Source: Candidatus Omnitrophota bacterium (GTDB lineage: Bacteria > Omnitrophota > Gorgyraeia > Zapsychrales > Fredricksoniimonadaceae). From it: a stretch of 41,689 nt of DNA. Shown here one piece after another: positions 18,967 through 28,058 of this stretch; position 1 is the first letter of the stretch; each line of letters begins with the position of its first letter. Position numbers and translations under genes: made by a program. The DNA is taken from NCBI GenBank assembly GCA_021731625.1, contig JAKFXC010000007.1, positions 1 through 41,689 on the forward strand, written 5' to 3'. The notes under the pieces are model-generated. The model searched no databases. It was not told the origin of the DNA and saw only the letters and a program-made list of their open reading frames with translations.

Positions 18967-19486
18967 GCTGGCGCGCCTTATTTTTTGTTTTTTATATTAT
19001 GGGTTCGCCCGGCACCTGCCCTCGACGGATATGCCCGGGGGCCGCTTATGGAAGGCCATCCGTTACTTTGTGTGCCGGCCTTTATTTGGGTCGTGCGGGA
19101 AGAATGTGAACGTGGAGAACAAGGTCTTTTTTCATTCGGGCCGGGATATTTCCATCGGCGATAACTCAGGCATTGGCATTAGGGCAAATTTATTGGGACG
19201 GGTCACGATTGGCCGCGACGTCATGATGGGCAGGGATGTCACGATTATAACCCGGAACCATAAATTTGACCGGCTGGACATCCCGATGGACCAGCAGGGG
19301 TTTGGGCCGCAGGAGCCGGTGACCATCGATGACGATGTATGGATCAGCGACCGGGTGGTCATTTTGCCCGGAGTGAAGGTTGGCCGCGGGGCTATCCTCG
19401 CCGCCGGTGCCATTGTGACTAAGAATGTCCCGGAATATGCCATCGTCGGGGGGAACCCGGCGCGGGTCATTAAATCTAGAAAATAA
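18953..19486 (+). CDS. Hexapeptide-repeat acetyltransferase (maltose/galactoside acetyltransferase-like)
   Basis: [41 protein letters not shown]...[48 protein letters not shown]. Confidence 0.92.
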
Positions 19487-19487
19487 C

Positions 19488-20318
19488 ATGAAAAACGAAA
19501 CCGAATTAGTCATTGAGGCAGGACGGGCAGAGAAACACTACTGGATAGACCTGTGGCGCTACAGAGAATTGTTTTACATTCTTAGCTGGCGGGACATCAC
19601 GGTCCGTTACAAACAAACGATCATCGGCATATTGTGGGCCGTTATAAGACCTCTCCTGACCATGCTGATTTTTACATTTATCTTCGGCAAGGTGGCCAAA
19701 CTGCCCAGCGACGGCAATGCTCCTTACGCCATTATGGTCTATGCGGCCATGCTCCCGTGGCAATTTTTTGCCACTTCGGTGTCGGATGCCAGCAATAGTC
19801 TGATCAACAATGCGCATCTGATTACCAAAGTCTATTTTCCCCGCATCATTATTCCCATCAGTTCCCTGGTGACCAGTCTGGTCGATTTTGCCATTTCTTT
19901 TGTGATCCTGATTTTTTTGATGTTTTATTTTCACTACGCCCCCGGATGGCAGATCCTCTTTTTGCCGTTTTTTTTACTGATCGCCTTGATTGCCGCCGCC
20001 GGGGCTGGCCTCTATATCACCGCCCTGAATGTGAAGTACCGGGACTTTCGCTTCATTGTGCCGTTCATTGTGCAGATTGGCCTGTATATTTCTCCCGTCG
20101 GGTTTAGCAGCAGCATTGTTCCGGAACAGTACCGGCTCATCTATTCGCTCAACCCCATGGTCGGGGTGATCGACGGCTTTCGTTGGGCCATTTTAGGCGG
20201 CACCTCGCCGCTGTCCTCGTCCAGTCTAATTTTGTCTGTGGGCGTTTCGCTGGCTCTTTTGGGGCTGGGGATTTATCAATTTAGAAAAACGGAACGAAAG
20301 TTTGCGGATATTATTTGA
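19488..20318 (+). CDS. wzm: ABC-2 type polysaccharide export permease (Wzm/TagG-like)
   Basis: LWRYRELFYILSWRDITVRYKQTIIGILWAVIRPLLTMLIFTFIFGKVAKLPSD...YRLIYSLNPMVGVIDGFRWAILG. Confidence 0.93.
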   Translation: MKNETELVIEAGRAEKHYWIDLWRYRELFYILSWRDITVRYKQTIIGILWAVIRPLLTMLIFTFIFGKVAKLPSDGNAPYAIMVYAAMLPWQFFATSVSDASNSLINNAHLITKVYFPRIIIPISSLVTSLVDFAISFVILIFLMFYFHYAPGWQILFLPFFLLIALIAAAGAGLYITALNVKYRDFRFIVPFIVQIGLYISPVGFSSSIVPEQYRLIYSLNPMVGVIDGFRWAILGGTSPLSSSSLILSVGVSLALLGLGIYQFRKTERKFADII

Positions 20319-20325
20319 GAAAAGT

Positions 20326-20997
20326 ATGTCGGAAAGCAAGCGCATTTTATATATATTTCTCGATGAAGGTGGCAATCTTGATTTTTCTAATAACGGTACA
20401 AAATATTTTACCCTGACAACGTTATCCAAAGAAAGGCCGTTCGAGGCATTTAAATCTTTATGTGAACTTAAATATGATCTTATTGAATTGGGCGTCGAGA
20501 TTGAATATTTTCATGCCGCTGAAGACACCCAAGCCGTAAGAAATGGAGTCTTTGAAGTTATCCAAAGATATATTGCTCAGACAAGAATTGATAGTTTAGT
20601 GGTTGAAAAGAGAAAAACTGGACCGAGTTTGCGGGCGGAAGATCGCTTTTATCCTGAAATGCTGGGATACTTATTACGTTATGTTGTTAATGGGTATGAT
20701 TTGACCAAGTTTAGCAAAGTGATTGTGTTTACGGATAGCATTCCTGTTTTGCGAAAAAAACAGGCTATTGAAAAAGCAATAAAGAAGATATTAGCCAGAA
20801 TGTTGCCGGACGGAGTTGTTTACGAGATTTTACATCATGCGTCTAAGTCGAATTTTGATTTACAAATTGTGGATTCTTGTAATTGGGCTGTGTACCGCAA
20901 GTGGGAGAGGGCTGACAGCAGATCTTATAATATTATAAGAAGGGTTATTAAGAGTGAATTTGATATCTTCAGGGAGGGGACTACGTTGTATTACTAA
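20326..20997 (+). CDS. DUF3800 domain-containing protein
   Basis: MSESKRILYIFLDEGGNLDFSNNGTKYFTLTTLSKERPFEAF...YFHAAEDTQAVRNGVF; visibly AT-richer than neighbours. Confidence 0.82.
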   Translation: MSESKRILYIFLDEGGNLDFSNNGTKYFTLTTLSKERPFEAFKSLCELKYDLIELGVEIEYFHAAEDTQAVRNGVFEVIQRYIAQTRIDSLVVEKRKTGPSLRAEDRFYPEMLGYLLRYVVNGYDLTKFSKVIVFTDSIPVLRKKQAIEKAIKKILARMLPDGVVYEILHHASKSNFDLQIVDSCNWAVYRKWERADSRSYNIIRRVIKSEFDIFREGTTLYY

Positions 20998-21005
20998 AAA
21001 AGCGA

Positions 21006-21058
21006 CCGCCTCGACTACTCTTGCGAGAGGGCCCCTTGGGCCCTTGTCATCGAGGCGG
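21006..21058 (+). ncRNA. Candidate structured RNA following the DUF3800 gene (DUF3800-RNA-motif-like three-way junction)
   Basis: P1 CCGCCTCGA(21006-21014)/TCGAGGCGG(21050-21058) perfect 9 bp; P2 CTCT-TGCG-AGAG (21018-21029, UNCG-type loop); P3 GGCCC-CTT-GGGCC (about 21030-21042); starts 8 nt after DUF3800 stop codon. Confidence 0.65.
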
Positions 21059-21256
21059 AACCTTTATGACATCTTAGATACATTTAAAGTATATAATTTT
21101 ATTGGTCAGACGACAAGGTTTATTTTAACTGCCATTCTGAAGTTCAATGGGGGAATAAAGAATGGTTGGAGATCTCTCTTTAAGGGAGAAATTCCGGGAT
21201 TTTTTGTGTCTAGATTCGCTGACATATGAAAGTATAACTGGACAGTAAGGGTAGAT

Positions 21257-22525
21257 ATGACCAACATCGCCATCCAAGCAGAAGGCATCAGCAAATCGTA
21301 TGTCATCAGGCACATGGGGGACAGATCCATGACCCTGCGGGAGGCCATTGTCAACGGCGCCAAAAAATTGAGCCCGAGGGGCAGGAGGCCGAGGTCGCTG
21401 GAGCAAGAGGAATATTGGGCCCTGAAGGAAGTGTCATTTGTGGTCAAGAAAGGCGAGACCGTCGGCATCATCGGCCGCAATGGCGCAGGCAAGTCAACGC
21501 TGCTTAAGATCTTAAGCCGGGTGACGGAGCCGACCCACGGAAAGATTTCCATTCGCGGCCGGGACGCCAGCCTTCTGGAAGTAGGGACAGGGTTCCATCC
21601 GGAACTCAGCGGCCGGGAGAATATTTTTCTAAACGGTGCCATCCTCGGCATGACCCGCCAGGAAATCAAACGCAAATTTGATGACATCGTGGCTTTTTCG
21701 GAGGTTGAGAAATTTTTAGACACCCCGGTCAAACGTTTTTCCAGCGGGATGTATGTGCGTTTGGCATTCGCCGTCGCCGCGCACCTTGAGCCTGATGTCT
21801 TGATCGTCGATGAGGTGCTGGCAGTCGGGGATGCGCAATTTCAGAAGAAATGCCTGGGCAAGATGGGCGACGTCGCTAAGGAAGGCCGCACGGTGCTCTT
21901 TGTCAGCCACAGCATGGGCGCTGTCCACACGTTGTGTTCCACCTGCATGTGGATTGATGAGGGCAAGGTCCGCAAGATCGGCCCCACGGAGGAGGTCATC
22001 CGCGCCTATTCCGCCCGGTTTAACCCGTCTGAGTTTACCGGCGTGGCAGACTTAAAAGATTGGACCAGCCGCTATGGCGACGGGCGGGTGCGCATTTTGT
22101 CCGCCCGGTTGCTCGATGAGGCCGGAGACGTGACCAATACCGTTTATCGTTCGCGCCCCATGACGGTGGAATTCGTCGTCGATGGCGAACATGTGCCTGG
22201 GCTGCAATTCTCAGCTGTCATGGTGGCGGCCTCAGGAGTTAAAGCTTTGCATTTGTCACACACCGATACCCCGGGCCTTGAGCTCGGTAAAATGGCCGGC
22301 CGTCATGTGGTCCGCTTTACCGTCCCAAGCCTGCCGCTGTGCGCCGGCAATTACAGCATGATTTTAGGGATCCATACGACCAACATGATGGCTGTTGATG
22401 TGGTGACAGACATATTGCCTTTCATCGCCCAGGACGCCGCGGATTCCCGCCGGCCTTATAGAACAACCGTGTCCGATGGTTATTGCACGGCGTCCAACCA
22501 TTGGTCATTTACGCCGGTGCCTTGA
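21257..22525 (+). CDS. wzt: Polysaccharide ABC transporter ATP-binding protein with C-terminal domain (Wzt-like, copy 1)
   Basis: GRNGAGKSTLLKILSRVTEPTHGKI; FSSGMYVRLAFAVAAHLEPDVLIVDEVLAVGD; extra ~180-residue C-terminal domain. Confidence 0.93.
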   Translation: MTNIAIQAEGISKSYVIRHMGDRSMTLREAIVNGAKKLSPRGRRPRSLEQEEYWALKEVSFVVKKGETVGIIGRNGAGKSTLLKILSRVTEPTHGKISIRGRDASLLEVGTGFHPELSGRENIFLNGAILGMTRQEIKRKFDDIVAFSEVEKFLDTPVKRFSSGMYVRLAFAVAAHLEPDVLIVDEVLAVGDAQFQKKCLGKMGDVAKEGRTVLFVSHSMGAVHTLCSTCMWIDEGKVRKIGPTEEVIRAYSARFNPSEFTGVADLKDWTSRYGDGRVRILSARLLDEAGDVTNTVYRSRPMTVEFVVDGEHVPGLQFSAVMVAASGVKALHLSHTDTPGLELGKMAGRHVVRFTVPSLPLCAGNYSMILGIHTTNMMAVDVVTDILPFIAQDAADSRRPYRTTVSDGYCTASNHWSFTPVP

Positions 22526-22531
22526 AAGAAT

Positions 22532-23911
22532 ATGTTAAAAGAATCCGAAACAATTGAATTTAAAAAATCCACTGCAGAGGTTAAAACGGCGGTCGTTTCT
22601 ATTGTGGCTATGCTCAACAAGCATGGCCGGGGAGAGGTCCACTTTGGCATTAATGATGACGGCAAGGTTTTAGGGCAGACGATTGGAAAAACGACGCTTA
22701 AGGATGTGACGCAGGCGGTCGTGGATAATACTGAACCAAAGGTCTACCCTAAGGTGGAGGTGCGTCAGATTGAAGGAAAAGATTGTATTGTTATGGAGGC
22801 GCAGGGGACCAACAGCCCTTATTTTGCTTATGGCCGCGCGTACATCCGCGTCGGTGAATCGGACAAAGCGATGAGTCCTCAAGAGATTGAAATACGCATA
22901 TTGAATCGAAAAAGATTGCTGTGGGAAAAAGAGATATCTGAAAAGACGCTGGCTGATGTTAATGAGGATGTGATCAAGGAGTTCATGCGTAAAGCCAAGA
23001 TGGCGAAACGCATCGACTTTGATTTTAAGGACGTAAAAAGCACACTCCACAAGCTCCACCTTTTGCATAAGAATCAATTGACCCGCGCGGCTGAAATTCT
23101 TTTTTGTGATGACAATTCAATGGAGGTTCAAGCGGCGATTTTTGCCGGCACGGACAAGTTGACCTTTCTAGACATTAAGTCGTTTAAAGGAACTCTTTTT
23201 AGCTTGCGCCAGGAGGCAGAGGTTTATGTCAACGGGCATATGAAATGGCGCGCAGATTTAAGTGAGAGCCGTCGTAAGGAGATTCCGGAAATTCCGGTAA
23301 GAGCCCTTTCAGAGGCGATCGGTAATTCATTGTGCCATCGCGATTATTCCAATCCTAAAGGCAATGAGGTGGCAATTTTTAAAGATCGGATTCAGATCTA
23401 CAATCCGGGATTTTTTCCAGAGGGAGTTAATCCGGAAGATTTCTTCAGCGGAAATGAGAAATCAATTTTACGTAATCCTTTGATCGCGGAAACGATGTAT
23501 AAGTCCAAGGACATTGAACGGTGGGGAAGCGGGATTAAGCGTATCCATGATGATTGCGTTGCCGCTGGTATCCGGGTGGAGTTTAAGCGCCTTAAAACCG
23601 GATTTGTGGTGGATTTCTATCGGCCAAAGTGGGAAGAAGGCGAGGGGCTGGAAAAGAAAAATCAGACAGGTGGTCAGACAGGTGGTCAGACAGGTGGTCA
23701 GAGAAAAAAACTTTTATTGAGTGTAAAGCAAAAGAAGATAATTGAGACATTAAAAACGAGACCAAAAATATCAAGGAAAGAATTAGTGGAGATTTTAGGT
23801 ATCAATGCTTCTGCCGTGCAAAAACATCTCTTAAAATTAAAAGAGGCTGGATATATCAAGCGTATTGGCCCTGATTTTGGCGGACACTGGGAGATTGTGA
23901 CTGATGCATAA
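22532..23911 (+). CDS. ATP-binding protein with AlbA_2 (Schlafen AAA_4-type) domain and C-terminal wHTH
   Basis: MLKESETIEFKKSTAEVKTAVVSIVAMLNKHGRGEVHFGINDDGKVLGQTIG; EAIGNSLCHRDYSNPKGNEVAIFKDRIQIYNPGFFPEGV; wHTH ISRKELVEILGINASAVQKHLLKLKEAGYIKRIG. Confidence 0.88.
   Translation: MLKESETIEFKKSTAEVKTAVVSIVAMLNKHGRGEVHFGINDDGKVLGQTIGKTTLKDVTQAVVDNTEPKVYPKVEVRQIEGKDCIVMEAQGTNSPYFAYGRAYIRVGESDKAMSPQEIEIRILNRKRLLWEKEISEKTLADVNEDVIKEFMRKAKMAKRIDFDFKDVKSTLHKLHLLHKNQLTRAAEILFCDDNSMEVQAAIFAGTDKLTFLDIKSFKGTLFSLRQEAEVYVNGHMKWRADLSESRRKEIPEIPVRALSEAIGNSLCHRDYSNPKGNEVAIFKDRIQIYNPGFFPEGVNPEDFFSGNEKSILRNPLIAETMYKSKDIERWGSGIKRIHDDCVAAGIRVEFKRLKTGFVVDFYRPKWEEGEGLEKKNQTGGQTGGQTGGQRKKLLLSVKQKKIIETLKTRPKISRKELVEILGINASAVQKHLLKLKEAGYIKRIGPDFGGHWEIVTDA
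23663..23701 (+). repeat. In-frame 12-bp tandem repeat (CAGACAGGTGGT x3 plus partial) encoding TGGQ repeats
   Basis: cagacaggtggt at 23663, 23675 and 23687; translates QTGGQTGGQTGGQ. Confidence 0.95.
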
Positions 23912-24266: not shown

Positions 24267-25730
24267 TTGAGAGAGGATATTTTAAACTTGCCTAGTGAGA
24301 ATGAGTTTTTAAAAGGACTTTTGGACATTCCCTCCGAGACTCAGACGATAGAATTTAAGCGTATGGGGGATGAAAGGGTTGTGTCTAAAACGATTGAAAC
24401 CGTTGTTGCTATGGCCAATACAGATGGTGGGATTATCGTATTAGGAATTGATGATCCTCAAAAAACGAAACTGAAAGGACTTGATAGAGTTTTCGGTGTT
24501 GAGGAAAATTTAGAAATTTTCGATGAAATCGGCCGTGAATTACAAAAAATCATTCCGCCACTATCAGGGGTATGGTTGCCTAATATGCTGGAGGTTAAGC
24601 AGAACAACAATCGCGTGGGGGTATTATTTGTTCCCAAGGCTGTTGATAGTTTTCGTTCCATCCATAACCATGTATACATTCGTTTAGAAAAAGGCAATCA
24701 TCGGCTTACTGCTCATGAGATTGTAAAGTTTGCTTATGCCAAGGGGTTCCAGAAAGCTGATCGGGAGCTTGTTTCTGTGGATTTCGCCCTTCTTAAAACT
24801 TTAATTTATGAGGAATGGAAGGCCTCGAGGCGTTTAAACGGAGGATCCATTGAGGCGATTCTTGAAAAAACAGGATTGGCTCGAAAGGATGACAAAGGAA
24901 CAGTCTTACCGACCAGGGCTGCGGTGCTGTTATTTGCAGAATATCCTAGTGATATTATGGATACAAAATGTACGGTTCGTATTTTGCAGTATACCGGGAC
25001 TATTGAAACTATCGGGGGCACTCCTAATTTGATAGGCATACCCAAGACGATCCAGGGACCTTTGGTCAGACAGATTGCGGATGTGCATGAGTACGTTTTG
25101 ACATTATTGCGTTCAGGGATCAGGATGCCCTCTGGCTTTAAGACTGAATATTTGATTCCAGAAAGAGCACTAAAAGAAGCAATCACGAATGCTGTTATCC
25201 ACCGTGATTATCATATGAAACGGGATATTGAAGTGAAAATTTATGAGGATCGAGTAGAGGTGGAAAGTCCGGGATTATTTCCTTATAACATTACCCGTAT
25301 GAATATTGGGCGAGAAAGGGCAGAAGGTTATCGTAATGACCTGCTTGTAAAACATCTTCGAGATTTTCCATTACCACCTAATTTGGATCAGAACGAAGGC
25401 GTGAAGGCAATGCGTAACGAAATGATGGCTCAGAATTTATATCCTCCGATCTTTTTAACGTATCCACTCCTTGAGGATTCTGTAAGAGTAGTGTTGTTAA
25501 ATGAGAAACGAGTTAGTGAATGGGAGAAAATAAGTAGTTACCTCAAGGAACATAAATATATTGCAAATGAAGAAGCCCGTAAGCTTACAAGGGTTGACCA
25601 GCGGGATAAAATGTCAAGAATGTTAAAAAATTGGGTCAAGCGCGGCCTTTTGATTCAGATCGTTCCGGCTAGTAAATATGTTAAAGATACGAAATATAAA
25701 TTACCGGATGATCAAGAAGTAAGGCGGTAG
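24267..25730 (+). CDS. ATP-binding protein with AlbA_2 (Schlafen AAA_4-type) domain
   Basis: ETQTIEFKRMGDERVVSKTIETVVAMANTDGGIIVLGIDDP; VYIRLEKGNHRLTAHEI; EAITNAVIHRDYHMKRDIEVKIYEDRVEVESPGLFP; TTG start. Confidence 0.87.
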   Translation: MREDILNLPSENEFLKGLLDIPSETQTIEFKRMGDERVVSKTIETVVAMANTDGGIIVLGIDDPQKTKLKGLDRVFGVEENLEIFDEIGRELQKIIPPLSGVWLPNMLEVKQNNNRVGVLFVPKAVDSFRSIHNHVYIRLEKGNHRLTAHEIVKFAYAKGFQKADRELVSVDFALLKTLIYEEWKASRRLNGGSIEAILEKTGLARKDDKGTVLPTRAAVLLFAEYPSDIMDTKCTVRILQYTGTIETIGGTPNLIGIPKTIQGPLVRQIADVHEYVLTLLRSGIRMPSGFKTEYLIPERALKEAITNAVIHRDYHMKRDIEVKIYEDRVEVESPGLFPYNITRMNIGRERAEGYRNDLLVKHLRDFPLPPNLDQNEGVKAMRNEMMAQNLYPPIFLTYPLLEDSVRVVLLNEKRVSEWEKISSYLKEHKYIANEEARKLTRVDQRDKMSRMLKNWVKRGLLIQIVPASKYVKDTKYKLPDDQEVRR

Positions 25731-25929: not shown

Positions 25930-26787
25930 ATGCCATTCCAAAACAATCCCCTCGACATTTTTTATAAGACCCTGAATCAAATTCTCAAAAATTCGGCGGT
26001 CACGGTGGACAAGCGGCCGGTGCCCATTGTTGTCAGCCTGACGTCTATCCCTGAACGCATGCACCTGGTCCATTTATGCATCGAGTCGCTGCTTAATCAA
26101 TCTTTAAAACCCGATTACCTTAACCTCTGGCTTCCGGAATCGGAACAGGTCAACAGTGACACTCTGCCTAGAAAGCTGCGAGATCAGCAGGAGCGGGGAC
26201 TGACCATAGATTTTGTCAGGGACATTGGGTCCTATACCAAGTTGCTTTATTCTTTGAAAAGGTTCCGGCATGCCGTCATCGTCACTGCCGACGATGACAC
26301 TATATATCCTTCCACCTGGCTGGAAGGCCTATACACCTCACATCTTCTCAACAAAAATTCCATCATTTGCTATCGGGGGACGCTGATTACCGGCATCAAG
26401 GACCGGGGCATCGACCAATACAGCCAGTGGCCGGAATATAATAGCCAACAGTCGAATTTGAGTTTGTTCCCGACCGGCAAAGATGGGATCTTGTATCCGC
26501 CGTTTTCCTTGCATGACGAAGTTTTTAATGAGCCGGTCTTTAGGGAAATTTGCCCGACGGGCGATGATATCTGGTTTAAAGCCATGTCGCTTAGGAAAAG
26601 TACCCTTTGTCAAAAAATCACCATGAACCATGTTGATTTCCCCACGATTCCCGGGAGCCAGCTTAGAACTTTGCACCAAATCAACAACATCGGGGGCCAG
26701 AATGAGGTTCAATTGAGGAAGGTCTTTGAGAAATATAAATTGCAGGACAGGTTGCGGGCCTCTGTGATCCATGAGGACCTGCCATGA
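25930..26787 (+). CDS. Glycosyltransferase (GT2-like)
   Basis: PVPIVVSLTSIPERMHLVHLCIESLLNQSLKPDYLNLWLPESE...HAVIVTADDDTIYPSTWLEGL (DDD motif); start taken at ATG 25930. Confidence 0.8.
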   Translation: MPFQNNPLDIFYKTLNQILKNSAVTVDKRPVPIVVSLTSIPERMHLVHLCIESLLNQSLKPDYLNLWLPESEQVNSDTLPRKLRDQQERGLTIDFVRDIGSYTKLLYSLKRFRHAVIVTADDDTIYPSTWLEGLYTSHLLNKNSIICYRGTLITGIKDRGIDQYSQWPEYNSQQSNLSLFPTGKDGILYPPFSLHDEVFNEPVFREICPTGDDIWFKAMSLRKSTLCQKITMNHVDFPTIPGSQLRTLHQINNIGGQNEVQLRKVFEKYKLQDRLRASVIHEDLP

Positions 26788-28058
26788 GCAACACAGTCAT
26801 CAAAGCTGAAGGCATTGGAAAGTCTTATGTAATTGATCATATGACCAATCAGCAACATGTCACTTTACGAGATGTTATTGTCAATACGACCAAAATGTTG
26901 GTTGAGAAAGTTCGTCACCCCAATAGCAGGATTAGTAAAGATAAAGAAGAATTTTGGGCACTTAAGGACATATCCTTTGACGTCAAACAAGGAGAGACCA
27001 TTGGAATTATCGGCCGGAACGGAGCGGGTAAATCAACGCTTCTAAAAATCTTAAGCCGGATCACGGAGCCCACGACGGGAAAAATTTCCATTAAAGGAAG
27101 GGTTGCCAGTCTCCTGGAAGTAGGCACCGGCTTTCATCCGGAGTTGACCGGAAGGGAAAACATTTATCTTAATGGCGCCATTCTTGGCATGAGCCGCGAG
27201 GAGATTAGACGTAAATTTGATGCCATTGTTGCGTTTTCGGAAGTGGAAAAATTTTTAGATACTCCGGTGAAGCATTTTTCCAGCGGCATGTATGTGCGTT
27301 TGGCGTTTGCCGTAGCAGCTCATCTTGAGCCGGAGATTTTGATTGTTGATGAGGTGTTAGCCGTTGGGGATGCTTCCTTTCAAAAAAAGTGTCTTGGGAA
27401 AATGGGTGAAGTGGCAACAGAGGGCAGAACAGTACTTTTTGTGAGCCACAACATGACAGCGGTAGAGAATCTTTGTCAGAAGGCAGTTCTTATTGATGAC
27501 GGCAGTGTGGTAATGCAGGGGAATACGACAGCATGTATTCAGCATTATCTTGCAATTATTCTGCCTTCTATCATAAAAGATGTTCCTCTGGTTGAAAGAA
27601 AAGATCGATCAGGAAATGGAAAGATTAGGCTAACGAATTTTCACATTGAGGATTCATCTGGAAACAGGTTAATGGCCGCACGCAGCGGTATGGACATAGT
27701 GTTTGTTTTTGGTTATCAATCATCCGAAAAGGAACCACTTAAAGATGCGGATATCGGCTTTTCAATTCATGATAAAGGAACGCTCTCAGTTCTATACAGC
27801 TCTTACGTTGATCAAAGCTTTCAGACTTTGCCGTATAAAGGAGAGTTTCGTTGTTTAGTTTCCCGACTGCCTCTCTCAGCAGGTCGTTATTCCATTGGTG
27901 CCCGCGTTACGATAGCCGGCCAAGAGGCTGATTGGCCCCGGAATGCGATTGGCTATTTAGATATTGAAGGTGGCGACTTCTATGGAACGGGCAGAGAAGG
28001 TTTTGGGACTTCAGCTCCTTTATTGTTGATGGGTCAATGGACCATCAGAGAGGATTAA
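26784..28058 (+). CDS. Polysaccharide ABC transporter ATP-binding protein with C-terminal domain (Wzt-like, copy 2)
   Basis: NBD closely similar to 21257-22525 (GRNGAGKSTLLKILSRITEPTTGKISIKGRVASLLEVGTGFHPELTGREN...) but different C-terminal domain. Confidence 0.93.
   Translation: MSNTVIKAEGIGKSYVIDHMTNQQHVTLRDVIVNTTKMLVEKVRHPNSRISKDKEEFWALKDISFDVKQGETIGIIGRNGAGKSTLLKILSRITEPTTGKISIKGRVASLLEVGTGFHPELTGRENIYLNGAILGMSREEIRRKFDAIVAFSEVEKFLDTPVKHFSSGMYVRLAFAVAAHLEPEILIVDEVLAVGDASFQKKCLGKMGEVATEGRTVLFVSHNMTAVENLCQKAVLIDDGSVVMQGNTTACIQHYLAIILPSIIKDVPLVERKDRSGNGKIRLTNFHIEDSSGNRLMAARSGMDIVFVFGYQSSEKEPLKDADIGFSIHDKGTLSVLYSSYVDQSFQTLPYKGEFRCLVSRLPLSAGRYSIGARVTIAGQEADWPRNAIGYLDIEGGDFYGTGREGFGTSAPLLLMGQWTIRED

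Follow-up and report, generated by a model that had tools for sequence, protein, structure and literature searches.

A convergently encoded structured RNA accompanies an RNase HII-like DUF3800 protein in a putative mobile nuclease module of bacteria and phages

A DUF3800 gene and a small structured RNA gene that faces it from the opposite strand were analyzed in a bacterium of the Omnitrophota and in relatives of the pair. As the best explanation, held with about even confidence, we propose a mobile two-part module in which an RNA antitoxin acting in trans would keep an RNase HII-like nuclease in check. That gene and RNA are partners is well supported. The antitoxin role is one that we infer, with moderate support, from the analogy with the RNA RCd22 and its partner AbiF (PMC12373285) and from an asymmetry in the retention of RNA and protein.

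The window, that is the whole 41,689-nt stretch analyzed, is a 41.7-kb contig of a 2.28-Mb genome in 101 contigs and bears a polysaccharide export cluster. Its DUF3800 gene lies on the plus strand (ATG at 20326, stop codon at 20995-20997) and is the only one in the genome. The upstream neighbor is wzm (19425-20318), and wzt (21257-22525) lies downstream of the DUF3800/RNA pair. Since 13 of 14 comparable loci of relatives have wzm directly next to wzt, and 942 nt separate the two here, gene and RNA were inserted between them as a unit, in agreement with the original prediction. At the locus with the closest relative of the window's wzm (L118, 2319-3350), a Fic-domain gene follows wzm and no wzt is present over a distance of 1.5 kb, which suggests that the interval between wzm and wzt may be a hot spot for insertions. 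The window also encodes two ABC proteins of the Wzt type (21257-22525 and 26784-28058), which share 56% identity and lie 4.3 kb apart, and two Schlafen AlbA_2/RecG-C-like genes (22532-23911 and 24267-25730) are located between them.

The structured RNA core comprises 67 nt (20999-21065, minus strand) and occurs as a single copy in the genome. Its closing stem P1 (21006-21058) pairs 21050-21058 with 21006-21014 and is extended by a U-G pair at 21049/21015. P1 encloses hairpin P2 (21028-21044), in which 21038-21044 pair with 21028-21034 around a loop at 21035-21037, and hairpin P3 (21018-21027), which reads CUC(GCAA)GAG with the GNRA loop at 21021-21024. The perfect 9-bp stem with two hairpins inside, 8 nt past the DUF3800 stop codon, had been recognized from the start, and the fold proved to be unusually stable, with a folding z of about -4.8 on either strand and none of 200 shuffles equally stable.

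A search of 84,980 species genomes with the DUF3800 protein yielded 43 relatives from many phyla, 72% to 37% identical, and the 3' flanks of their DUF3800 genes contain the same RNA element. In an alignment of 38 RNA sequences, pairing is kept in 99.3% of the cells and 17 of the 23 base pairs vary on both sides. None of 500 shuffles attains any of five measures, and pairing falls to 42-63% when the partners are slid out of register. The RNA model R1, built from this alignment with L035, L042-L044, L048, L049 and all later loci excluded from building, gives 89.7 bits in the window and scores at 43 of 43 relative loci, a figure that covers close relatives only because the relatives were collected via the protein. 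Genome-wide, R1 was positive in 45 of 46 carrier genomes or records with a copy number of nearly always one; many of the loci are metagenome bins. An RNA-only blastn search of plasmids returned no matches, and a degenerate DNA pattern of the RNA run against viral contigs gave chance matches only. Judged from the sequences, the three-stem RNA fold is genuine and conserved.

The element had originally been read on the plus strand, as a 3' product of the DUF3800 message with a UNCG tetraloop. Among the 38 sequences, P1 contains 13 G-U wobbles on the minus reading versus none on the plus reading, and at a further P1 position the minus strand has U-G in 34 sequences and C-G in the other 4, a pattern that would mostly give A-C mismatches on the plus strand. 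The P3 loop is of the GNRA type with at least three closing pairs in 29 of 38 sequences on the minus strand. The plus strand offers a UNCG loop in 10 of them, which is the GNRA loop in a shifted register. Folding energy is lower on the minus strand in 35 of the 38 sequences, and the minimum-energy fold coincides with the conserved structure in 31 on the minus strand versus 11 on the plus strand. For the window, the minimum-energy fold of the minus strand is the exact conserved three-way junction, whereas that of the plus strand is without the CTCT hairpin.

The region upstream of the minus-strand RNA was scored for sigma-70 promoters up to a distance of 30 nt, applying a promoter model of the E. 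coli kind that is weak in some groups (Verrucomicrobiota). The mean score was 7.57 versus 3.08 in dinucleotide shuffles (z=11.9), and three control regions scored in the same way gave z values of 1.4, 0.5, and 1.6. The single promoter-like site of the window, TTGTCG-17-TATACT (21088-21116, minus strand), ends 22 nt before the RNA core; since one site of this kind would be expected by chance as well, the weight rests on the family-wide result. The predicted transcript runs from approximately 21081 to 20996 on the minus strand, and the element, with its promoter, extends beyond the end at first assigned to it. A U6 tract at 20996-21001, the predicted 3' end of the RNA, overlaps the DUF3800 stop codon, and the minus-strand 3' end is T-rich across the RNA family. 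Wobble counts, GNRA loop, folding energy, promoter, and T-rich 3' end together strongly support an RNA gene on the minus strand, convergent with DUF3800 (20326-20997) and under its own promoter. A plus-strand RNA was ruled out by wobble counts, loop type, promoter, and energy, and with it the initial views of the tetraloop and of a 3' product were abandoned.

The 223-residue product of the gene matches the PF12686 profile with 32.8 bits against a cut-off of 21, which places it in the DUF3800 family as first assigned. A sequence search for solved structures gave nothing useful. An AlphaFold2 model with a pLDDT of 92.4 had RNase HII (PDB ID: 1eke) as its best match in the Protein Data Bank (E=6.5e-6, TM 0.46), and Argonaute PIWI domains ranked after RNase HII with non-significant scores. 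Residues D13, E14, G16, D67, D137, and D183 are invariant across 43 sequences (alignment A2). The D-E-x-G motif, located on the first strand, and the aspartates further along the chain presumably agree with the active site of RNase HII. Both the match in structure and the acidic residues of the active site (D13, E14, D137, and D183) are thus present, and the model suggests that DUF3800 folds like RNase HII. An RNase H fold has already been reported for DUF3800 (PMC10910872).

The question whether the RNA belongs to the known series of DUF3800-associated RNAs, named as families in Rfam (PMC11701678), was addressed with covariance models. Neither the gathering score nor a relaxed limit of E<=10 yielded any relevant Rfam match for the window itself. 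Minus-strand alignments to DUF3800-IX (RF02968) that span the whole RNA (1-67) were obtained for two relatives, one scoring 31.6 bits (E=1.5e-5) and the other 23.2 bits; the best relative tested is thus below the gathering score of 36.8 bits, and membership in DUF3800-IX fails by score but is matched in architecture, a convergent three-way junction beside DUF3800. At one locus (L060) a true DUF3800-IX RNA (60.5 bits) is convergent at the end of the DUF3800 gene. It has in common with the window RNA this placement at the DUF3800 3' end, the three-stem order, a GA-containing first junction, a UAG last junction, and the U tail, but differs in sequence and loop of P2 and is missed by R1. A MAFFT alignment of the distant RNA cores with DUF3800-IX was poor, and the kinship is based on cmscan and architecture. 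In a genome of the window's order (L006), a DUF3800-V RNA (RF02964, 72.5 bits) likewise is convergent with a DUF3800 gene, whose protein is 28% identical, and terminates at its stop codon, but this RNA has another, longer fold of 96 positions with no sequence match to the window RNA.

The original prediction that the element belongs to or extends this series was upheld, since a covarying structured RNA is regularly found beside DUF3800 genes. Of the checks proposed with it, the Rfam search was blank for the window and the covariation analysis was strongly positive; the outcome named as speaking against it, no Rfam match together with no covariation, did not arise because covariation is strong and relatives reach DUF3800-IX. 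As the window has no Rfam match, its relatives reach DUF3800-IX below threshold, and DUF3800-IX and DUF3800-V are likewise convergent, the RNA is, at the level of sequence comparison, a new and distinct member of the known series that is invisible to Rfam, although the original authors may have described this very variant without an Rfam entry resulting. DUF3800 genes of phages and prophages with 24-37% identity carry recognizable variants of the core in the same place and on the same strand. Three distant DUF3800 genes (26-28%) missed by R1 were inspected by eye and showed convergent promoter-like sites and other folds, one of them being DUF3800-V. At L005 and L007, the 3' flanks of distant DUF3800 genes hold promoter-like sites in convergent orientation together with multi-stem folds for which Rfam has no matching family, possibly further members of the series.

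Linkage of gene and RNA was assessed in 679 genomes from three samples: 92 genomes related to that of the window, 388 from the phylum of G098, and 199 from the family of G112. The RNA is present in 17 of them. All 10 intact DUF3800 genes with at least approximately 42% identity have the RNA alongside, whereas 7 of the 17 RNAs are without an intact close partner, the gene being dead, truncated, distant, or absent. In G058 a 43-residue DUF3800 stub is left, and a TIR gene has been inserted ahead of the RNA; in G062 the RNA accompanies a distant DUF3800 that has decayed, inside a type I restriction locus; in G727 there is an 11-residue stub flanked by an AAA ATPase and a restriction subunit; in G757 the DUF3800 gene has three stops; and in G573 a distant DUF3800 lies on the other side of the RNA. 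In G849 and G867 there is no DUF3800 partner, and the RNA lies in the hsdS-hsdR gap or beside hsdR. A close intact DUF3800 gene was hence never found without the RNA and the RNA outlives the protein, an asymmetry that rests on 17 genomes and small numbers. It is the pattern to be expected of an RNA that does no harm and a protein dependent on it, and it suits an antitoxin but also a cofactor. At L062 (7083-10062), downstream of restriction-modification genes, a TIR/STAND-type gene lies between a C-terminal DUF3800 stub and the RNA; this defense gene appears to have been inserted precisely between the DUF3800 gene and the RNA.

HsdM, HsdS, or HsdR neighbors occur at 14 of 46 loci, with HsdS upstream and HsdR downstream of DUF3800/RNA at eight loci, and the first downstream gene is a type I restriction subunit in 10 of 41. 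On the protein tree the restriction-neighbor label shifts 6 times, 5 of them forced by well-supported branches, so the association has been gained or lost repeatedly. The tree also mixes phyla, with 14 changes; the window protein, for example, groups with one sequence from Omnitrophota and one from Chlamydiota. Gene 54 of Gordonia phage Kenna (L081, 2881-3642), annotated as hypothetical, is a DUF3800 gene with the RNA. The phage RNA scores 63.7 bits, the adjacent protein is 26% identical, and the pair lies directly after the immunity repressor gene. DUF3800 and RNA move as a pair among bacterial phyla and phages. Four loci (L025, L028, L041, and L052) contain, in the stretch from the RNA to hsdR, a conserved GC-rich element of approximately 58 nt (AAAACGGCCGCCCCCGGTTAC...GAACGGGCATTCCCGTTCC), and just upstream of DUF3800 three of these (L025, L028, and L041) contain a conserved element of approximately 62 nt with a terminator-like look (CCTGGCAGTAAGCCTTCCC...CCCCGGGGCTTTTC). 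A second type of this structured RNA, beside hsdR and with its own DUF3800 absent, was seen at L025 (3915-3991), L112 (1501-1574), and L111 (1501-1575). Its pairing is kept, and these RNAs may be relics, anti-addiction RNAs, or RNAs acting on the restriction genes.

On this basis a mechanism in three steps is suggested. In the first, which we regard as almost certain, a structured RNA of approximately 70-86 nt would be transcribed from its own minus-strand promoter towards DUF3800 and end at the DUF3800 stop codon. In the second, very probably, the RNA would be a trans-acting partner of DUF3800, a putative RNase HII-like nuclease. Besides the strict linkage, this step builds on the layouts: the RNA is commonly convergent, but lies upstream of DUF3800 and co-directional at L042-L044 and is divergent from it at L069. 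As all three layouts occur, the RNA is not merely part of the DUF3800 message and would act in trans. In the third step, somewhat less probable than even, DUF3800 would by analogy be a latent nuclease, a toxin or abortive-infection effector, held inactive by direct binding of the RNA. When transcription or the associated restriction system is disturbed, the RNA would be lost and the nuclease could act. Several observations speak against an antitoxin: the orphan RNAs beside hsdR at L111 and L112 and the second copy of L025 retain their base pairing and might serve a separate function, the RNA is a single copy unlike the tandem repeats of ToxIN-type systems, and the window locus is a polysaccharide operon and not a restriction locus.

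An activating cofactor would give the identical linkage, and this is the main competitor of the antitoxin reading. Here the RNA would be an obligate cofactor or sensor, and DUF3800 and RNA an active defense ribonucleoprotein in which the RNA switches the nuclease on or recognizes the trigger. The Argonaute PIWI domains in the fold search, non-significant as they are, point in this direction, as does the fact that DUF3800 accompanies some Cas12a2 systems (PMC10910872). On the other hand, RNAs persist after decay of the protein, although a harmless cofactor could do so too, and the structured, conserved core has no variable guide-like segment. We consider a cofactor possible but less likely than not.

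Two further explanations fare worse. The convergent RNA could pair with the DUF3800 mRNA in its 3' untranslated region, as in convergent type I toxin-antitoxin pairs, and in the common layout a read-through DUF3800 message would indeed be complementary to the whole RNA. Such antisense pairing is impossible where the RNA precedes the gene in the same orientation (L042-L044) or is divergent from it (L069), and it is structure, not sequence alone, that is conserved; as a general mechanism cis-antisense control is disfavored by these layouts and is very improbable. The RNA or its DNA could instead mark where a mobile element ends or attaches, with DUF3800 as a recombinase-like enzyme. Insertion of the cassette as a unit, spread across phyla, and the replacement of DUF3800 by other genes right beside the RNA at some loci would suit such an element. 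But no direct or inverted repeats were found around the cassette, there is one copy per genome, and the own promoter and RNA-type wobble pairs indicate an expressed RNA, which makes a mobile-element end very improbable. Finally, a mere transcription terminator, the alternative raised in the original prediction, or a chance hairpin can practically be dismissed in spite of the GC-rich stems and the minus-strand U tract, because junction bases are conserved, covariation spans a wide range, the promoter is present family-wide, and a scan of both strands found no terminator-like site.

DUF3800 RNAs have so far been an orphan series of candidate structured RNAs. The present case supplies a strand, a promoter, a protein fold, a retention pattern, and a recurrent tie to type I restriction operons and phages, and the convergent orientation is common to at least three RNA families, DUF3800-V, DUF3800-IX, and that of the window. 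Strand, promoter, fold, context, and retention together make a direct and cheap functional test possible.

Among known systems, type III toxin-antitoxin pairs such as ToxIN have an array of tandem RNA repeats that precedes the toxin gene and is co-transcribed with it, whereas the window RNA is a single copy on the opposite strand. A TnpB/IscB-type system would have a guide segment and transposon ends; flanking repeats and a variable segment are both absent here. Retrons of type VII have a DUF3800 effector with a reverse transcriptase alongside. No reverse transcriptase was found among the window neighbors scanned, and the window DUF3800 has only weak similarity to DUF3800_VII of PADLOC. A functional likeness is offered by AbiF, which is neutralized by the RNA RCd22 as shown by experiment (PMC12373285). 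In this type III-like system too, a structured RNA with its own promoter was first listed as an orphan motif, and as in the window family the RNA adjoins a nuclease-like protein of phages and prophages (PMC12373285). The systems differ in that AbiF is a HEPN-like Abi_2 protein and DUF3800 has an RNase H-like fold, that the RNA of AbiF is upstream, co-transcribed, and of two motifs, and that neutralization is experimental there and inferred here.

A likeness in genomic setting is seen with PrrC, which sits between hsdS and hsdR. PrrC, a latent nuclease whose gene forms part of the EcoprrI type I restriction operon (PMC3874165), resembles those DUF3800 genes that lie with their RNA between hsdS and hsdR, but only some DUF3800 loci are in restriction operons. 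Unlike DUF3800, PrrC is a tRNA anticodon nuclease, and it is the restriction enzyme, not an RNA partner, that silences it. Extending the antitoxin reading to the whole series, we tentatively suggest that DUF3800 proteins might be RNase HII-like toxins, each with its own family of trans-acting RNA antitoxins, and could form a widespread RNA-controlled defense class that often guards type I restriction operons as PrrC does.
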